Source of the DNA: Frigoribacterium sp. ACAM 257
Lineage (GTDB): Bacteria > Actinomycetota > Actinomycetes > Actinomycetales > Microbacteriaceae
DNA length: 64,000 nt
Assembly (NCBI RefSeq): GCF_007954365.1
Contig: NZ_VOLO01000001.1
Span: 372,001-436,000, forward strand
Direction: 5' to 3'
Position numbers and translations under genes: made by a program. This document shows, in pieces, positions 19,794-25,380 of the stretch (position 1 is the first letter of the stretch; every line of letters starts with the position of its first letter). The notes under the pieces were generated by a model. That model did not search any database and had not been told where the DNA came from. It saw nothing but the letters and a program-made list of their open reading frames with translations.

Positions 19794-21464
19794 CTAGCGC
19801 AGCAGCTCGCGCATGCCGGCGTCGAGGTCGGCGACCGCCGCCTCCGCCGCAGCCCGACGCGCGAGCGCGTCGCCCTCGGTGCTGGACGCGTCGATGTAGA
19901 CCTTCAGCTTCGCCTCGGTTCCGCTCGGGCGCACGATCACGCGGGACCCGTCGGTGAACCAGTAGCGCAGCACGTCACCGGCGGGGAACCCGCCGAAGCC
20001 GTCCCGGAAGTCGTCGACACGGTCGACCCGGTGCGATCCCACGGTCGCGGGAGGCGCCTCCCGCAGTCGGCTCGTGAGCCTGCCGATCTCGGCGAGGTCG
20101 TCGACCCTGAGCGAGATCTGCGACGACGCGTACGCCCCGAAGCGCTCGTCGAACGCGACTAGGTGCTCGGCGACGGACGAGCCTGCCGCGGCCAGCTCGG
20201 TCGCCAGCGCGAGGAAGTCGACCGCGGCGGAGATGCCGTCCTTGTCGCGGACCTTCTCGGGGTCGACGAGGTAGCCGAGGGCCTCCTCGTAGCCGTAGAG
20301 CAGCCCGCCGACGCGGGAGACCCACTTGAAGCCCGTGAGGGTGTCGACGTAGTCGAGCCCGTAGCGCCCGGCGACCTCGCGCAGGGCCGGCGACGAGACG
20401 ATGCTCGCGGCGAGGGTGCCGTCGACGTCGTCGCGTCGGGCTCGCTCGGCGGCGCGCCAGCCGAGCAGCGCGCCCACCTCGTTGCCGGACAGGCGGCGCC
20501 AGCCCTCGGCCGAGGGGACGGCGACGGCGAGCCGGTCGGCGTCGGGGTCGTTGGCGATCACGAGACCGGCCGACACCCGGTCGGCGGTGGCGAAGGCGAG
20601 GTCGAGCGCCCCGGGCTCCTCCGGGTTGGGGAACGCCACGGTCGGGAAGTCGGGGTCGGGGGCGGACTGCTCCGCGACGGGGACCGGCTCGACGAAGCCG
20701 GCCTGGCTGAACACCCGGCGGGCGACCTCCCACCCGACGCCGTGCATGGCCGTGTAGACGACGCGGGGCTGCGTGCCGGAGGCGGCTGTGCCGGCGAGCG
20801 CCGCCGTGCGGCGGACGTACTCGTCGACGAGGTCCTCGCCGGCCTCGGACCAGTCGTCGGACCGCGGCAGCTCGCTGACGGGCCTCGTGGCCGCGTCGTC
20901 GATGTGGGCCGCGATCTCGGCGTCGACCGGGGCGACGATCTGCGAGCCGGCGTCGACGCCGCCGAGGTACACCTTGTAGCCGTTGTCCTGAGCGGGGTTG
21001 TGGCTGGCGGTGACCATGACGCCGGCGCTGACGTCGAGGTGGCGCACCGCGAAGGCCAGCACCGGCGTGGGGAGGGCACGCGGGAGGATCGTCGTGCGGA
21101 CCCCGGCGGCGGCCATGATCTCGGCGGTGTCGCGGGCGAAGACGGCGCTGTTCTTGCGCCCGTCGTAGCCGACGACGATCGAGGGCTCCTGCTCGCGTGC
21201 CGTGAGGAACGCCGCGAAGCCGGCCGCGGCCTGCGCGACGAGCACTCGGTTCATCCGGGCGGAGCCGGCCCCGAGTGCACCACGGAGCCCGGCCGTGCCG
21301 AAGGCCAGGCGGGAGCCGAAGCGGTCCTGCAGGTCCGCGGCGGCGGAGGCGTCTCCGGACTCGACGGCCGCCAGGACGGCGTCGAGCTCGTCGCGGGTCT
21401 CACGGTCGGGGTCCTGGTCGCGCCAGGAGCGGGCTGCGGCGACCAGGGCCGCGTCGTCGGTCAC
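19794..21464 (-). CDS. Phosphosugar mutase (phosphoglucomutase/phosphomannomutase family)
   Basis: A 556-residue alpha-D-phosphohexomutase. It has FGTAGLRG near the N-terminus, the phosphoserine loop TASHNPAQDNGYKVY, metal loop DPDADRLAVA, sugar-specificity loop GYEEALGY and the C-terminal phosphate-binding loop RPSGTEAKLKVY. Because it overlaps the purine nucleoside phosphorylase gene by 4 nt, a role as phosphopentomutase acting on (deoxy)ribose-1-phosphate is likely; such genes are often annotated pmmB. Glucose- or mannose-phosphate mutase activity for glycan synthesis cannot be excluded. Confidence 0.9.
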   Translation of the reverse strand: MTDDAALVAAARSWRDQDPDRETRDELDAVLAAVESGDASAAADLQDRFGSRLAFGTAGLRGALGAGSARMNRVLVAQAAAGFAAFLTAREQEPSIVVGYDGRKNSAVFARDTAEIMAAAGVRTTILPRALPTPVLAFAVRHLDVSAGVMVTASHNPAQDNGYKVYLGGVDAGSQIVAPVDAEIAAHIDDAATRPVSELPRSDDWSEAGEDLVDEYVRRTAALAGTAASGTQPRVVYTAMHGVGWEVARRVFSQAGFVEPVPVAEQSAPDPDFPTVAFPNPEEPGALDLAFATADRVSAGLVIANDPDADRLAVAVPSAEGWRRLSGNEVGALLGWRAAERARRDDVDGTLAASIVSSPALREVAGRYGLDYVDTLTGFKWVSRVGGLLYGYEEALGYLVDPEKVRDKDGISAAVDFLALATELAAAGSSVAEHLVAFDERFGAYASSQISLRVDDLAEIGRLTSRLREAPPATVGSHRVDRVDDFRDGFGGFPAGDVLRYWFTDGSRVIVRPSGTEAKLKVYIDASSTEGDALARRAAAEAAVADLDAGMRELLR

Positions 21465-22291
21465 AGGGCCGCCACGATGCGGGCGAGGAGCTGGCTGATG
21501 GCGCCCTCGGCGTCCCTGCCGGCCTGCAGCACCTCCTGGTGGCTCAGCGGCGTCGTCTGGATGCCGGCGGCGAGGTTCGTGATCAGCGACATGCCGAGCA
21601 CCTCCATCCCGGCCTCGCGGGCGGCGATCGCCTCGAGCGCCGTCGACATGCCGACGATGTGGCCGCCCATGGCCTTCGCCATCTGCACCTCGGCCGGCGT
21701 CTCGTAGTGGGGGCCCCTGAACTGCGTGTAGACGCCCTCGTCGAGGCTCGGGTCGATGCCCTTGGCGAGCTCGCGCAGGCGCGCCGAGTAGAGGTCGGTG
21801 AGGTCGATGAAGGTCGCGCCCTCGAGCGGGCTGTCGGCCGTGAGGTTGATGTGGTCGCTGATCAGGACGGGGCTGCCGGGCGTCCAGGTCTCCTTGATGC
21901 CGCCCGCGCCGTTCGTGAGGATCATCGTCCGGGCGCCCGTGGCGGCGGCGGTGCGGACGCTGTGCACGACGCGGCGGACGCCGTGGCCCTCGTAGTAGTG
22001 CGTGCGGGCGCCGATGACGAGGGCGTTCTTGCCGCTCGGGAGCGCGATGCTGCGGATCGAGCCCGTGTGGCCGACGACCGCCGAGGCGCTGAAGCCGGTG
22101 ATCTCGGTCGCGGGGACCTCGGCGGTCGTCTCGCCGATCAGGTCGGCGGCCTTCGCCCAGCCGCTGCCCAGGGTGAGGGCGATGTCGTGGTGGGCGACGC
22201 CGGTCGCGCGGGCGATGTCGGCGGCGGCGGTGCGGGCGACCTCGAACGGGTCGGCGGCACCGTCGAGGGGGTGCGTGGGGGTCTCGGACAT
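21461..22291 (-). CDS. Purine nucleoside phosphorylase
   Basis: A 276-residue trimeric-type PNP that phosphorolyses inosine/guanosine to base and ribose-1-phosphate. Motifs: LTLGSGWA near the N-terminus, GARTHYYEGHG (phosphate/purine region), LTNGAGGI and FRGPHYETPAEVQMAKAMGGHIVGMSTALEA given here only by its ends FRGPHYE and VGMST. ATG 22291 is set by TAGAGT 7 nt upstream; the longer frame would start before this promoter. Its stop overlaps the mutase start by 4 nt. Confidence 0.94.
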   Translation of the reverse strand: MSETPTHPLDGAADPFEVARTAAADIARATGVAHHDIALTLGSGWAKAADLIGETTAEVPATEITGFSASAVVGHTGSIRSIALPSGKNALVIGARTHYYEGHGVRRVVHSVRTAAATGARTMILTNGAGGIKETWTPGSPVLISDHINLTADSPLEGATFIDLTDLYSARLRELAKGIDPSLDEGVYTQFRGPHYETPAEVQMAKAMGGHIVGMSTALEAIAAREAGMEVLGMSLITNLAAGIQTTPLSHQEVLQAGRDAEGAISQLLARIVAAL

Positions 22292-22304
22292 GCGCTCCAC
22301 TCTA
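22292..22304 (-). promoter_or_regulatory. PNP -10 element, leaderless
   Basis: On the minus strand TAGAGT (22304-22299) is followed by 7 nt and then the PNP start codon. Confidence 0.6.
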
Positions 22305-22331
22305 GGTCCCGCGCCCGCCTCCTCCATCGCT

Positions 22332-22346
22332 CTCCTCATTCAGGAA
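22332..22346. repeat. Left inverted repeat of the AbiEi/DUF559 module
   Basis: CTCCTCATTCAGGAA is the exact reverse complement of 23525-23539. With a gap of five unlike bases the similarity resumes (GTCCTGATC on both sides), extending the imperfect repeat to about 29 nt (22332-22360 and 23511-23539). Confidence 0.85.
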
Positions 22347-22386
22347 CTCGAGTCCTGATCTGCGCGGCGGGGGGACTGATCCTCCT

Positions 22387-22406
22387 GATCCGTGCACGGT
22401 TCAGGA
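22387..22406 (+). repeat. Direct-repeat copy of the DUF559 gene's 3' end
   Basis: GATCCGTGCACGGTTCAGGA closely matches 23470-23488 (GATCGTGCACAGTTCAGGA): one insertion and one mismatch. The right copy is the end of the DUF559 coding region (DRAQFRT); the left copy read in frame gives IRARFRN. This suggests a remnant of a second family member upstream, or a shared target sequence. Confidence 0.6.
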
Positions 22407-22487
22407 ACCTCGAACACTGCCTTCCTGCATGTTGCGCGTCCACAGGGCGTCACCGTCGTTCCCGCACGAGGCGCAGGTCTCCGTCAT
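22401..22487 (-). pseudogene. Possible remnant of a small zinc-ribbon-like protein
   Basis: A 28-codon frame with the start MTETCASCGNDGD. The CxxC in the first ten residues resembles the start of small zinc-ribbon proteins of actinobacteria that are usually about twice as long. The frame runs out in a TCAGGA motif, as if cut. It could be chance; no second CxxC is seen nearby. Confidence 0.2.
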
Positions 22488-22548
22488 GCGTCCACAAGGC
22501 AGACGAGGAGGCGCGTGTCGGGGCTCGGACACCGGTGACCATGCCGAC

Positions 22549-23496
22549 ATGGACCTCCTGCAGACACTCGCCGCGTTCGGCGGCATCGCGACCCGCCGAC
22601 AGCTCCTCGCGAACGGACACAGCGGTGGCGACCTGACGACCGCGGTGCAGCGAGGTGCCGTCCGCAGGGTCCGCCAGGGGCACTACACGAGGCTCGACGC
22701 GGCCACGGACGCCGTCGCGGCCGTCCGCCTCGGCGGCCGCCTCGCGGGCCCCTCCGCCGCCTCCGTGCACGGACTCTGGGCCGGCTACGACCGGCGTCTG
22801 CACGTCTCGGTCGCGAGGAACGCGTCCCGTCTGCGGGTGGCGCGTCGGGTCGCGCCGGGGGGCGAGGACGCGCCGAGGTCCGCCGACGGGTCCGTGGTGG
22901 TCCACTGGACCGACACGGAGCCCCTCGCGCTCGCTGAGCCGTGCTGGCGGTCGTCCGTCGTCGTCTGCCTGCGACAGATGGTCGCGTGGTGCGACGAGGT
23001 GACGGCGGTGGCGTGCGTCGACACGGCCCTGCAGGCCCGCCTGGTCGGGCTCGACGAGCTCACGGCGGGCCTCGAGGGCCACGGCCCTCGCGTCCGGGCC
23101 GTGCTGCAGAGGTGCCGCCCGGGCTCGGACTCGGGTGTCCAGTCGATGGTGCGGCAGGCGCTCGCGGCCAGGGGCGTCGACGTCGAGCAGCAGGTGTGGG
23201 TCACGTCGGTCGGGCCGAGCGACATGCGCCTGCGAGGTCGTCGCGGGCAGGCGCTCCGCGTGCTCGTGGAACTCGACGGCTTCGCGTTCCACTCACGGCG
23301 AGACGCGTTCGACCGGGACCGGACGAAGGACGCGGAGGCGGCGTCGGCCGGCTACACGACCCTGCGGTTCAGCGCTGACCAGGTCGAGCGAGATCTCGGA
23401 GGGGTCGTCGACACGATCACGCGCGTTCGCGACGCACACGATGAAGGAACGCAGGCGTCCCTGTTCCTGGATCGTGCACAGTTCAGGACGATCTGA
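22549..23496 (+). CDS. AbiEi-like winged-helix protein with C-terminal DUF559 (Vsr-like) nuclease domain
   Basis: A 315-residue protein; ATG 22549 chosen because the helix-turn-helix start is then at the N-terminus as in relatives (earlier ATG 22429 adds 40 unlike residues). Residues ~1-50 match the AbiEi antitoxin-type winged helix (IATRRQLLANG ... VRQGHYTR). Residues 50-190 are a variable middle region. Residues ~195-290 match DUF559, a restriction-endonuclease-like fold related to Vsr: VELDGFAFHSRRDAFDRDRTKD (Glu241, Asp243, His248, Asp257/Lys260) and LRFSADQVERD. Where many relatives have Glu in an SxxES helix this one has Gln198, so activity is uncertain. The gene stands alone between oppositely directed housekeeping genes and inside inverted repeats. 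Function of this solo architecture is unknown to me; mobile-element or defence roles are inferences. Confidence 0.75.
   Translation: MDLLQTLAAFGGIATRRQLLANGHSGGDLTTAVQRGAVRRVRQGHYTRLDAATDAVAAVRLGGRLAGPSAASVHGLWAGYDRRLHVSVARNASRLRVARRVAPGGEDAPRSADGSVVVHWTDTEPLALAEPCWRSSVVVCLRQMVAWCDEVTAVACVDTALQARLVGLDELTAGLEGHGPRVRAVLQRCRPGSDSGVQSMVRQALAARGVDVEQQVWVTSVGPSDMRLRGRRGQALRVLVELDGFAFHSRRDAFDRDRTKDAEAASAGYTTLRFSADQVERDLGGVVDTITRVRDAHDEGTQASLFLDRAQFRTI
23470..23488 (+). repeat. Right direct-repeat copy inside the DUF559 gene end
   Basis: Matches 22387-22406 except for one missing base and one change. It lies in the last codons of the gene. Confidence 0.6.
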
Positions 23497-23524
23497 CCCC
23501 CTCTCGCGAGGATCAGGACGGAAC

Positions 23525-23539
23525 TTCCTGAATGAGGAG
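23525..23539. repeat. Right inverted repeat of the AbiEi/DUF559 module
   Basis: TTCCTGAATGAGGAG, the exact reverse complement of 22332-22346. It lies 4 nt beyond the accC stop codon, so it may also affect the 3' end of that transcript. Confidence 0.85.
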
Positions 23540-23543
23540 CGGG

Positions 23544-25301
23544 CTAGTCGATGCTGAGCAGGACGTGGCCCGACGAGACCGTCTCGCCGACCGTGGCCGA
23601 GATGCCCGAGACGACCCCGTCGCGGTGCGCCGCGACCGGCTGCTCCATCTTCATTGCCTCGAGCACGAGCACGAGATCGCCCTTGACGACCTGCTGGCCC
23701 TCCTCGACGGCGAGCTTGACGACGGTCGCCTGCATGGGCGACTTGACCTCGGCGCCCGTGGCGGTGACCACGGCGCCGCGACCCGCGCCGCGACGGCGGG
23801 GGGCGGCCGCAGGAGGCGCGGTGCGCGCGCCGAGACCAGCCGGCAACGAGACCTCGACGCGCTTGCCGCCGACCTCGACCACGACGGTGGTGCGCTCGTC
23901 GTCGGGGCGGGGCGCCTCGGCCTCGCCGCTCCACGCGGGGATGTCGTTGACGAAGTCGGTCTCGATCCAGCGGGTGTAGATAGAGAACGGCTGGCCGCCC
24001 TCGGGGGCGAAGGCCGGGTCGCGGACGATCGCGCGGTGGAACGGCAGCACGGTGGGCAGGCCGGCGACCTCGAACTCGTCGAGCGCGCGGCGGGATCGCT
24101 CGAGGGCGTCCTCGCGCGACGAGCCGGTGACGATCAGCTTGGCGAGCAGCGAGTCGAACGAGCCGCTGATCTCGTCGCCGGCCTGGACGCCGCTGTCGAC
24201 GCGGACGCCGGGGCCGCCGGGCGCCTTGAAGACGTGCACGGGGCCGGGGGCAGGCATGAAGCCGCGGCCCGCGTCCTCGCCGTTGATGCGGAACTCGAAC
24301 GAGTGGCCGCGGGGCTCGGGGTCGCCGTACTCGAGCACGCCGCCCTCGGCGAGGCGGAACTGCTCGCGGACGAGGTCGATGCCGGTGATCTCCTCCGAGA
24401 CCGGGTGCTCGACCTGCAGGCGGGTGTTCACCTCGAGGAACGACACCGTGCCGTCCTTGCCGATGAGGAACTCGCAGGTGCCGGCGCCGACGTAGCCGAC
24501 CTCGCGGAGGATCGCCTTGGACGACTCGTAGAGAGCGGTGGTCTGCGCCTCCGTCAGGAACGGGGCGGGCGCCTCCTCGACGAGCTTCTGGTGACGGCGC
24601 TGCAGCGAGCAGTCGCGCGTCGACACGACGACGACGTTGCCGTGCGCGTCGGCGAGGCACTGCGTCTCGACGTGGCGGGGCTGGTCGAGGTACTTCTCGA
24701 CGAAGCACTCGCCGCGGCCGAAGGCGGCGACGGCCTCGCGGACGGCCGAGTCGAACATCTCGGGCACCTCGTCGCGGGTGCGGGCGACCTTGAGGCCGCG
24801 ACCGCCGCCGCCGAAGGCCGCCTTGATGGCGACGGGGAGCCCGTGCTGGTCGACGAAGTCGAGCACCTCGTCGGCGCCCGAGACGGGGTTGAGGGTGCCG
24901 GGCGCGAGGGGCGCGCCGACGCGCTCGGCGATGTGCCGGGCGCTGACCTTGTCGCCGAGCTGCTCGATCGCCTCGGGGGAGGGGCCGATCCAGACGAGGC
25001 CCGCAGCCGTCACGGCGCGGGCGAAGTCGGCGTTCTCGGCGAGGAACCCGTAGCCGGGGTGCACGGCGTCGGCACCCGAGCGGCGGGCGACCGAGAGGAT
25101 CTTGTCGATGACGAGGTAGGTCTCGGCGCTCGTGGTGCCGCCGAGGGCGTACGCCTCGTCGGCGAGGCGGGCGTGCTGGGCGTCCCTGTCCTGGTCGGCG
25201 TACACGGCGACGCTGCCGATCCCGCTGTCGCGCGCTGCGCGGACGACCCGGACCGCGATCTCTCCACGGTTGGCGATGAGGACCTTGCTGATGGACGGCA
25301 T
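23544..25301 (-). CDS. Acyl-CoA carboxylase alpha subunit (biotin carboxylase plus biotin carrier)
   Basis: A 585-residue biotinylated subunit that carboxylates its own biotin with ATP and bicarbonate and hands the carboxyl group to the beta subunit, making malonyl-CoA or methylmalonyl-CoA. The N-terminal biotin carboxylase starts with [13 protein letters not shown]; the ATP-grasp glycine loop is [28 protein letters not shown] is the active-site block. A Pro/Ala linker joins a biotinyl domain with EAMKMEQP (biotinylated Lys). ATG 25301 lies 8 nt after TAGGGT (minus strand). Typical AccA3-like length. The beta and epsilon subunits are encoded about 5.5 kb to the right. Confidence 0.95.
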
Positions 25302-25329: not shown

Positions 25330-25368
25330 GCCTCCTTTGGATGACGTGCACGAAAACACGCAGGAGGC
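25330..25368 (-). terminator. Hairpin downstream of maf
   Basis: GCCTCCT (25330-25336) pairs with AGGAGGC (25362-25368), with a further CGTG/CACG pairing inside. It sits between the maf stop and the accC promoter. Confidence 0.35.
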
Positions 25369-25380
25369 GCGTGAGGATTG

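Follow-up and report, generated by a model that had tools for sequence, protein, structure and literature searches.

What is a solitary gene doing between two housekeeping genes, enclosed by inverted copies of a repeat that recurs throughout the genome? This question is raised by a unit of about 1.2 kb in Frigoribacterium sp. ACAM 257, which we analysed within a stretch of 64,000 nucleotides (contig NZ_VOLO01000001.1, positions 372,001 to 436,000; hereafter the window, whose coordinates are used throughout). The unit lies between the genes for a purine nucleoside phosphorylase (PNP) and a biotin carboxylase (accC) and consists of an element, a gene and the same element inverted. We think it slightly better than an even bet that this is an AbiEi-like nuclease cassette working with its own palindromic sites, a REPtron-like unit built around an unrelated enzyme.

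An original prediction, made from the window alone, had described a perfect 15-bp inverted repeat at both ends, seven TCAGGA/TCCTGA hexamers and a gene opposed to both neighbours, and all of this is present. The 15-bp arms lie at 22332-22346 and 23525-23539, the hexamers at 22340, 22353, 22383, 22401, 23483, 23513 and 23526, and the gene reads against biotin carboxylase and PNP alike. As proposed, the repeat continues imperfectly, the 15 bp being the outer part of imperfect arms at 22317-22440 and 23431-23554 that are 73% complementary. Its extent was nevertheless understated: the unit is about 104 bp long and has five half-sites, of which the fifth (TTCCTGAAT, less exact) had been missed. The excess of hexamers across the window is slight (37, a number equalled or exceeded in 4 of 100 shuffles, vs 27 expected), hence the local cluster is the notable feature. 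The right element starts 5 bp beyond the biotin carboxylase stop and holds the last codons and stop of the cassette gene. For this gene we prefer the ATG at 22549, in agreement with orthologue L050, over the longer in-frame starts at 22429, 22432 and 22486.

The repeats are indeed the ends of the module, as first read, but they are also two copies of a genome-dispersed family. Searched against its own genome, the full module occurs once and its ends give at least 76 partial matches (best 40 of 546 candidates scored, many partial matches being one place on both strands), so the expected copies with the same ends do exist elsewhere. From 38 fetched regions and the window we took 44 copies, which align nearly without gaps in the order CTCCTCATTCAGGAA, about 6 nt, TCCTGA, about 24 nt, TCCTGA, a GTGCAC core, TCAGGA, about 16 nt and TTCCTGAAT. 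An element model built on these copies, with at most the best 150 candidates scored per genome, matched at least 83 times in the window genome and at least 78, 58 and 37 times in the Frigoribacterium genomes G015, G003 and G012, counts that include some partial opposite-strand matches; the other 12 of the 16 Frigoribacterium genomes gave no match to it. In G015, 70 of the matches have E below 1e-8. According to a simple gene caller the 44 copies are intergenic, apart from a few that overlap gene ends. In 33 of 43 classifiable copies a co-oriented gene has its 3' end towards the CTCCTC end, which in 23 of the 33 lies 0-35 bp from the stop. GGAG is a variant of the GTAG-type tetranucleotide of REP ends; no invariant GTAG appears in the alignment, and GGAG can be read on the complementary strand of the terminal CTCCTC.

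We also tried reading the element as a hairpin RNA. RNAalifold gives two hairpins, with paired columns that barely vary and both-sided change in only 1 of 10 pairs. Covariation was weak; of the 12 stems, N5 was the sole one to stand out, its number of Watson-Crick pairs being reached by 7 of 2000 shuffles. The conserved thing is the half-site sequence, and an RNA reading is therefore not favoured. Rfam returned only a sub-threshold match to a plant microRNA family (MIR528, window 22262-22328), almost certainly by chance.

Comparison within the genus shows both the cassette and its repeats in some genomes and not in others. The full cassette occurs in two of the 16 Frigoribacterium species, the window genome and G015, the latter holding the only close orthologue (86% identity) in the same place with both elements. 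Four other genomes have homologues at 34-36% identity, and ten have none at E 1e-20. The PNP-accC junction is without the gene in 14 of the 16 genomes (junction extracts of 76-142 bp), and in one of these, G003, part of an element is present (33.8 bits). The empty junctions that had been foreseen thus exist, and the opposite picture, with gene and flanks at this locus in all relatives and no copies elsewhere, was not found.

Both flanks of 32 of the 44 copies map together in G015, with a same-orientation element between them in 31; the other 12 are not proof of absence, because only stretches around listed G015 elements were compared. Over the 31 orthologous pairs, the half-site columns agree at 941 of 961 positions (97.9%) and the spacer columns at 1391 of 1798 (77.4%; Wilcoxon p 1e-6), a difference favoured by two biases, in that half-sites served both to find the copies and to fit the register. 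A synteny check of seven copies located the flanks of L015, L016, L020, L023 and L032 in G015 without an element. L020 is a clean insertion of about 128 bp relative to G015 with a possible 5-bp repeat, while the other four show other junction changes as well and the L016 region aligns poorly. L025 and L031 were not located in G015, and two stretches aimed at L026 and L036 yielded nothing. From these syntenic empty sites it follows that elements are gained (or lost) singly, while shared copies keep their half-sites. At the G015 loci L205, L213 and L198 there are extra tandem or inverted copies where the window genome has one. In G015 about 50 of 78 matches are strong (E <= about 4e-17), in G003 about 19 of 58 and in G012 about 18 of 37; the denominators include partial opposite-strand matches, up to 150 candidates were scored per genome, and the model was built from window-genome copies. 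It is suggestive only that G003 and G012, with fewer strong matches than G015, may show elements relaxing after gene loss.

The encoded protein combines two predicted parts. In Pfam, DUF559 lies above its cut-off (2.3e-8) and MTES_1575 below (4.1e-8); AbiEi_4 is sub-threshold (16.2 bits against a cut-off of 25), and a sub-threshold DUF2726 completes the list at E<=1. In Pfam, the AbiEi-type label given originally rests on this sub-threshold AbiEi_4 match. PADLOC AbiEi profiles support it (best E 4.7e-6, residues 5-98 of a 316-aa reading), and AbiEi_4 appears in six of eight homologue proteins at E<=0.1. Besides AbiEi, PADLOC gave weak matches to nuclease or homing-endonuclease domains. The protein's own structure model is poor, a fold search from it reaching AbiEi at E 0.28 only, and the fold evidence comes instead from the model of a relative: its residues 1-181 match the solved AbiEi 6y8q, and its nuclease part matches 3hrl, I-Bth0305I and Vsr, a Vsr-like PD-(D/E)XK fold. 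The architecture thus models, for this relative, as AbiEi plus a Vsr/EDxHD-like nuclease. E241, D243, H248, D257, K260 and D261, a putative catalytic set, are invariant in one alignment of eight proteins; a more diverse eight-protein alignment leaves E241, H248 and D257 only. No HUH tyrosine (Y1) transposase domain was found by Pfam in the window protein (E<=1) or its homologues, and searching solved structures by sequence gave no match at E<=1. Carriage by phages or plasmids was set aside, the 50,697 phage records holding a single distant match (E<=1e-3) and the 72,556 plasmid records a single partial one (E<=1e-5). A PHROG match has no assigned function, and the open-access literature searched assigns no role to these AbiEi-like nuclease homologues.

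Homologues are common: at E 1e-15 they occur in 173 of 249 Microbacteriaceae genomes and in 69 of 296 class-level genomes. We asked whether they too have palindromes at their ends, scoring perfect arms of at least 11 bp with a span of 60-125 bp within 290 bp upstream or around the 3' end. Thirty loci were tested, one from each of the 30 best-scoring Microbacteriaceae genomes and thus not a random sample. A palindrome stands upstream in 22 of the 30 (0.66 expected from shuffles) and at the 3' end in 13 (0.50 expected); control windows farther out gave 0 of 30 and 1 of 30, and that single case is another copy. In almost every arm detected, TCAGG is present on one of the two strands. A further 29 loci came from the class-level search. 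Among the 11 Microbacteriaceae loci in this set, 3 have an upstream palindrome (0.14 expected) and 4 a downstream one; among the 18 outside the family the numbers are 6 (0.28 expected) and 4. Outside the family the half-sites are wholly different, and identical motifs stand on both sides of the gene in G385 and G267, outside the family, and in G177, within it. Geometry was counted at 24 loci chosen for having a palindrome: in 20 of 22 loci an upstream one has its near end 96-136 bp from the start, and the downstream one, present in 14 of 24, starts ahead of the first in-frame stop in 13 loci and extends over the stop in 6. A paralogue in Frigoribacterium, L049, has upstream GTCGGCAACTCCT palindromes in all five orthologues.

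Further palindromes were seen around such genes. A second family, GTCGGC(A/G)ACTC followed by AGG/CTG/CGG and often in tandem, is present in all 16 Frigoribacterium genomes (for instance at G001:C1:999374-999878), several of its members lying upstream of other AbiEi-DUF559 paralogues. On either side of the G012 homologue L054 stands an imperfect inverted repeat of 24 nt (1290-1313 / 2422-2445) built on TTTGAGAG/CTCTCAAA, possibly another half-site type.

The repeats are also dispersed in other genera. The half-site pattern TCGGMAAHTCAGG matches in 89 of the 249 Microbacteriaceae genomes, 25 of which have 8-50 matches; the reversed pattern gives at most 2 in any genome listed. All 25 pattern-rich genomes carry an E 1e-15 homologue, compared with 173 of 249 overall (p 6e-5). 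Clustering was assessed in nine genomes of three genera, picked since clustering was visible in their site listings, by counting sites within 50 kb of a gene listed for the genome, gene-adjacent sites excluded, against uniform placement; 16 of 20 hits were listed for G213, two G213 sites and one other-contig G051 site were omitted, and G231, G127, G062, G131, G094 and G098 were left out. Copies crowd around the gene in G180 (10 of 20 sites, 1.09 expected), G051 (8 of 19, 1.40), G036 (5 of 15, 0.85), G124 (5 of 7, 0.24), G213 (5 of 6, 1.12), G101 (3 of 6, 0.29) and G163 (3 of 3, 0.17). Both listed genes of G036, at 1.66 and 3.28 Mb, are flanked by palindromes. In the same genome L238:1602-2301 is 66% identical to the start of a cassette; it lies some 2 kb away from the second complete one and is possibly a degenerate third. 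A role in marking the origin or terminus (ori/ter) domain of the chromosome, modelled on matS sites and prompted by the sparsity of the window family in part of the G015 chromosome, was dropped because copies crowd near the gene in other genera and because of the positions of the two flanked G036 genes.

Spacing within the palindromes is regular as well. From half-site to inverted half-site the spans fall at about 73-75, 83-86, 93-97, 106-107 and 117-118 bp, with a best period of 11.0 bp for 106 spans (Rayleigh z 90) and of 11.2 bp for the 56 read directly from sequence (z 48); related copies are not independent here, several length classes recur in several lineages, and some spans come out 1-2 bases longer than the rule used for the rest would make them, their pattern being one base longer. 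The helical repeat of B-DNA is about 10.5 bp. Steps near one helical turn, a property of the two-half-site families, therefore point to double-stranded DNA with both half-sites on about one face.

As far as genome sequences can establish it, gene and palindrome type travel together, the geometry recurs, half-sites are kept and copies come and go. That the protein recognises the repeats has good support from these comparisons, and the idea that the nuclease binds its own flanks gains indirectly from palindromes of one motif on both flanks in relatives, from the helical spacings and from the conserved half-sites. Mobilisation of the repeats we infer. The N-terminal winged helix would bind half-site pairs on one face of double-stranded DNA, with two or more protein molecules assembled over the phased sites; the nuclease domain, on a weaker footing, may cut at or near the half-sites. 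Repair or strand transfer would then carry element copies into other intergenic gaps, where they would typically land just behind stop codons, and perhaps often in the gene's vicinity, since the protein would act close to where it is made. Somewhat short of even, in our estimate, stands the broader proposal of an undescribed actinobacterial class of mobile gene and repeat, in which an AbiEi-like protein with a Vsr/EDxHD nuclease domain would recognise half-site pairs spaced by whole helical turns in double-stranded DNA and copy the palindromes, in several lineages preferentially close to its own gene, instead of using the single-strand HUH chemistry of REPtrons.

Several observations weigh against this account. 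Upstream palindromes are missing at 8 of the 30 best loci, two of which, the window and G015 loci, went undetected because their arms are too short, and at 20 of the 29 class-level loci; the Frigoribacterium genes L228, L232, L233 and L236 have none. Apart from those at its flanked gene, G385 has a single exact copy. Clustering is weak in G257 (4 of 5, 1.21 expected, P 0.014) and not significant in G019 (3 of 5, 1.09 expected, P 0.07), and the 57 element loci of the window family in G015 are not centred on the module. A scan for target-site duplications found none that was consistent (best z 4.0 among 2912 combinations). Recent movement is modest, because 31 of the 44 window-genome copies are shared with G015. 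The numerous elements of G003 and G012 exist without a close gene orthologue. Finally, the unit that was said to move or duplicate does show presence and absence between species, but within the window genome only the repeat has multiplied. Separately, the distant G385 palindrome (G385:C1:453352-453424) has another homologue (G385:C1:437139-437945) some 15 kb away.

Among other explanations the most serious, though in our view an unlikely one, treats the protein as an autorepressor or a chromosome-architectural protein and the palindromes as its binding sites, multiplied and retained for their use in regulation, 3'-end processing or looping, the nuclease being secondary or inactive. Half-sites kept copy by copy while spacers drift, binding-site-like spacing near helical steps and the recurring upstream distance from the start are what one would expect of operators, and autoregulation of AbiEi through inverted repeats has been published (PMC7319586). 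This reading accounts for conservation and phasing, but not for spread, the second flank and clustering: it leaves unexplained the copy at the 3' end in 14 of 24 loci selected for a palindrome, the abundance of matches in four species beside their absence from 12 congeners, and the syntenic places without an element, and the putative nuclease residues are conserved. Improbable, we think, is homing, in which the nuclease cuts cassette-less chromosomes, repair copies the cassette in, and solo palindromes are abortive or truncated products; it would put the gene at one allelic site, and predicts neither dozens of solo copies with intact half-sites elsewhere nor spans in helical steps.

We give very little weight to another enzyme, such as an undetected RAYT, having spread the elements and the gene having been caught between two copies by chance. 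The elements of G003 and G012 fit such a history, but the same gene family is palindrome-flanked in many genera with differing half-sites and recurring geometry, and one half-site type tracks one gene lineage in all five Frigoribacterium orthologues. Least credible of all is a solo anti-phage defence gene whose repeats mark self DNA. The original prediction had offered a defence-type nuclease; the AbiEi-like domain and the nuclease fold of a relative agree with this, and beyond them nothing positive emerged. The two adjacent genes, the only ones examined in this respect, are housekeeping genes, neither a toxin (AbiEii included) nor a defence gene, and PADLOC matches AbiEi, with weak nuclease or homing-endonuclease matches beside it.

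For a palindrome-associated nuclease cassette the nearest functional counterpart would be the REPtron, with an enzyme unrelated to RAYT. In REPtrons, palindromic intergenic repeats flank the gene and are also dispersed, and repeat type co-evolves with gene type (PMC3733652, PMC8266576). Here too dispersed palindromic repeats flank the gene, also in other genera; the enzyme, however, is of AbiEi plus Vsr/EDxHD type rather than an HUH tyrosine transposase, the elements are half-site pairs of about 73-118 bp in helical steps (five half-sites in the window family), and in three genera copies gather near the gene. With the type IV toxin-antitoxin system AbiE, whose AbiEi autoregulates through inverted repeats, the cassette shares an AbiEi-like N-terminal part and inverted repeats near the promoter (PMC7319586; fold 6y8q). 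It differs in that neither adjacent gene encodes an AbiEii (DUF1814) toxin, the nuclease domain is in the same protein, and the repeats also stand at the 3' end and are dispersed. The C-terminal domain resembles the Pfam family of MTES_1575, a novel Vsr-type restriction endonuclease fused to HEPN, transglutaminase and wHTH domains, but that is part of a very large multi-domain protein, and palindromes are unmentioned in the sections consulted (PMC3710099). I-Bth0305I, an EDxHD homing endonuclease, matches the fold of the relative's nuclease domain model, whereas here no intron or intein context is seen, the flanks are palindromic and solo copies are dispersed. The cassette resembles insertion sequences and their miniature inverted-repeat transposable elements in the 1.2-kb single-gene unit with inverted ends, the gene ending inside the right end, the short non-autonomous copies and the presence or absence at orthologous sites; unlike theirs, the solo copies are one end rather than two joined ends, no target duplication was established, and the protein has no known transposase domain.

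Together this suggests an undescribed kind of gene-and-repeat partnership; the open-access literature yielded no description of an AbiEi/DUF559 gene-palindrome association, though a subscription paper could exist. Pairing with their own palindromes would give these common actinobacterial homologues a testable function, and REP-like repeats could have a second source alongside RAYTs. Decay with distance around the gene would record cis-acting spread, while from the helical steps a definite arrangement of protein on DNA can be predicted. If the interpretation is correct, AbiEi operators, Vsr-type nucleases and mobile repeats are joined in one system.

Table 1 Features of the cassette and its neighbours, in window coordinates.
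Feature	Position	Strand	Basis or remark
Left element copy	22332..22436	+	model R1 match 22331-22436, 107 bits; alignment of 44 copies
Left copy, site 1			ATTCAGGAA, within terminal CTCCTCATTCAGGAA
Left copy, sites 2 and 3	22353, 22383		TCCTGA; then GTGCAC core
Left copy, site 4	22401		TCAGGA
Left copy, site 5	around 22423-22431		TTCCTGCAT
Right element copy, inverted	23435..23539	-	model R1 match 23435-23540, 96.9 bits
AbiEi-DUF559/MTES_1575-type gene, 315 aa	22549..23496	+	codon-usage call; Pfam
AbiEi-like N-terminal coding region, approximate	22549..23100	+	PADLOC; relative's model; boundary inferred
Vsr/EDxHD-like nuclease domain coding region, approximate	23125..23433	+	Pfam; alignments; relative's fold matches
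Biotin carboxylase/BCCP (accC), outside cassette	23544..25301	-	stop at 23544
Purine nucleoside phosphorylase (PNP), outside cassette	21461..22291	-	

A further motif, GCGCCTCCTG / CAGGAGGCGC, recurs intergenically in the window genome, often right after stop codons; it is found in the flanks of many element copies and, in the window, at about 25358-25372.
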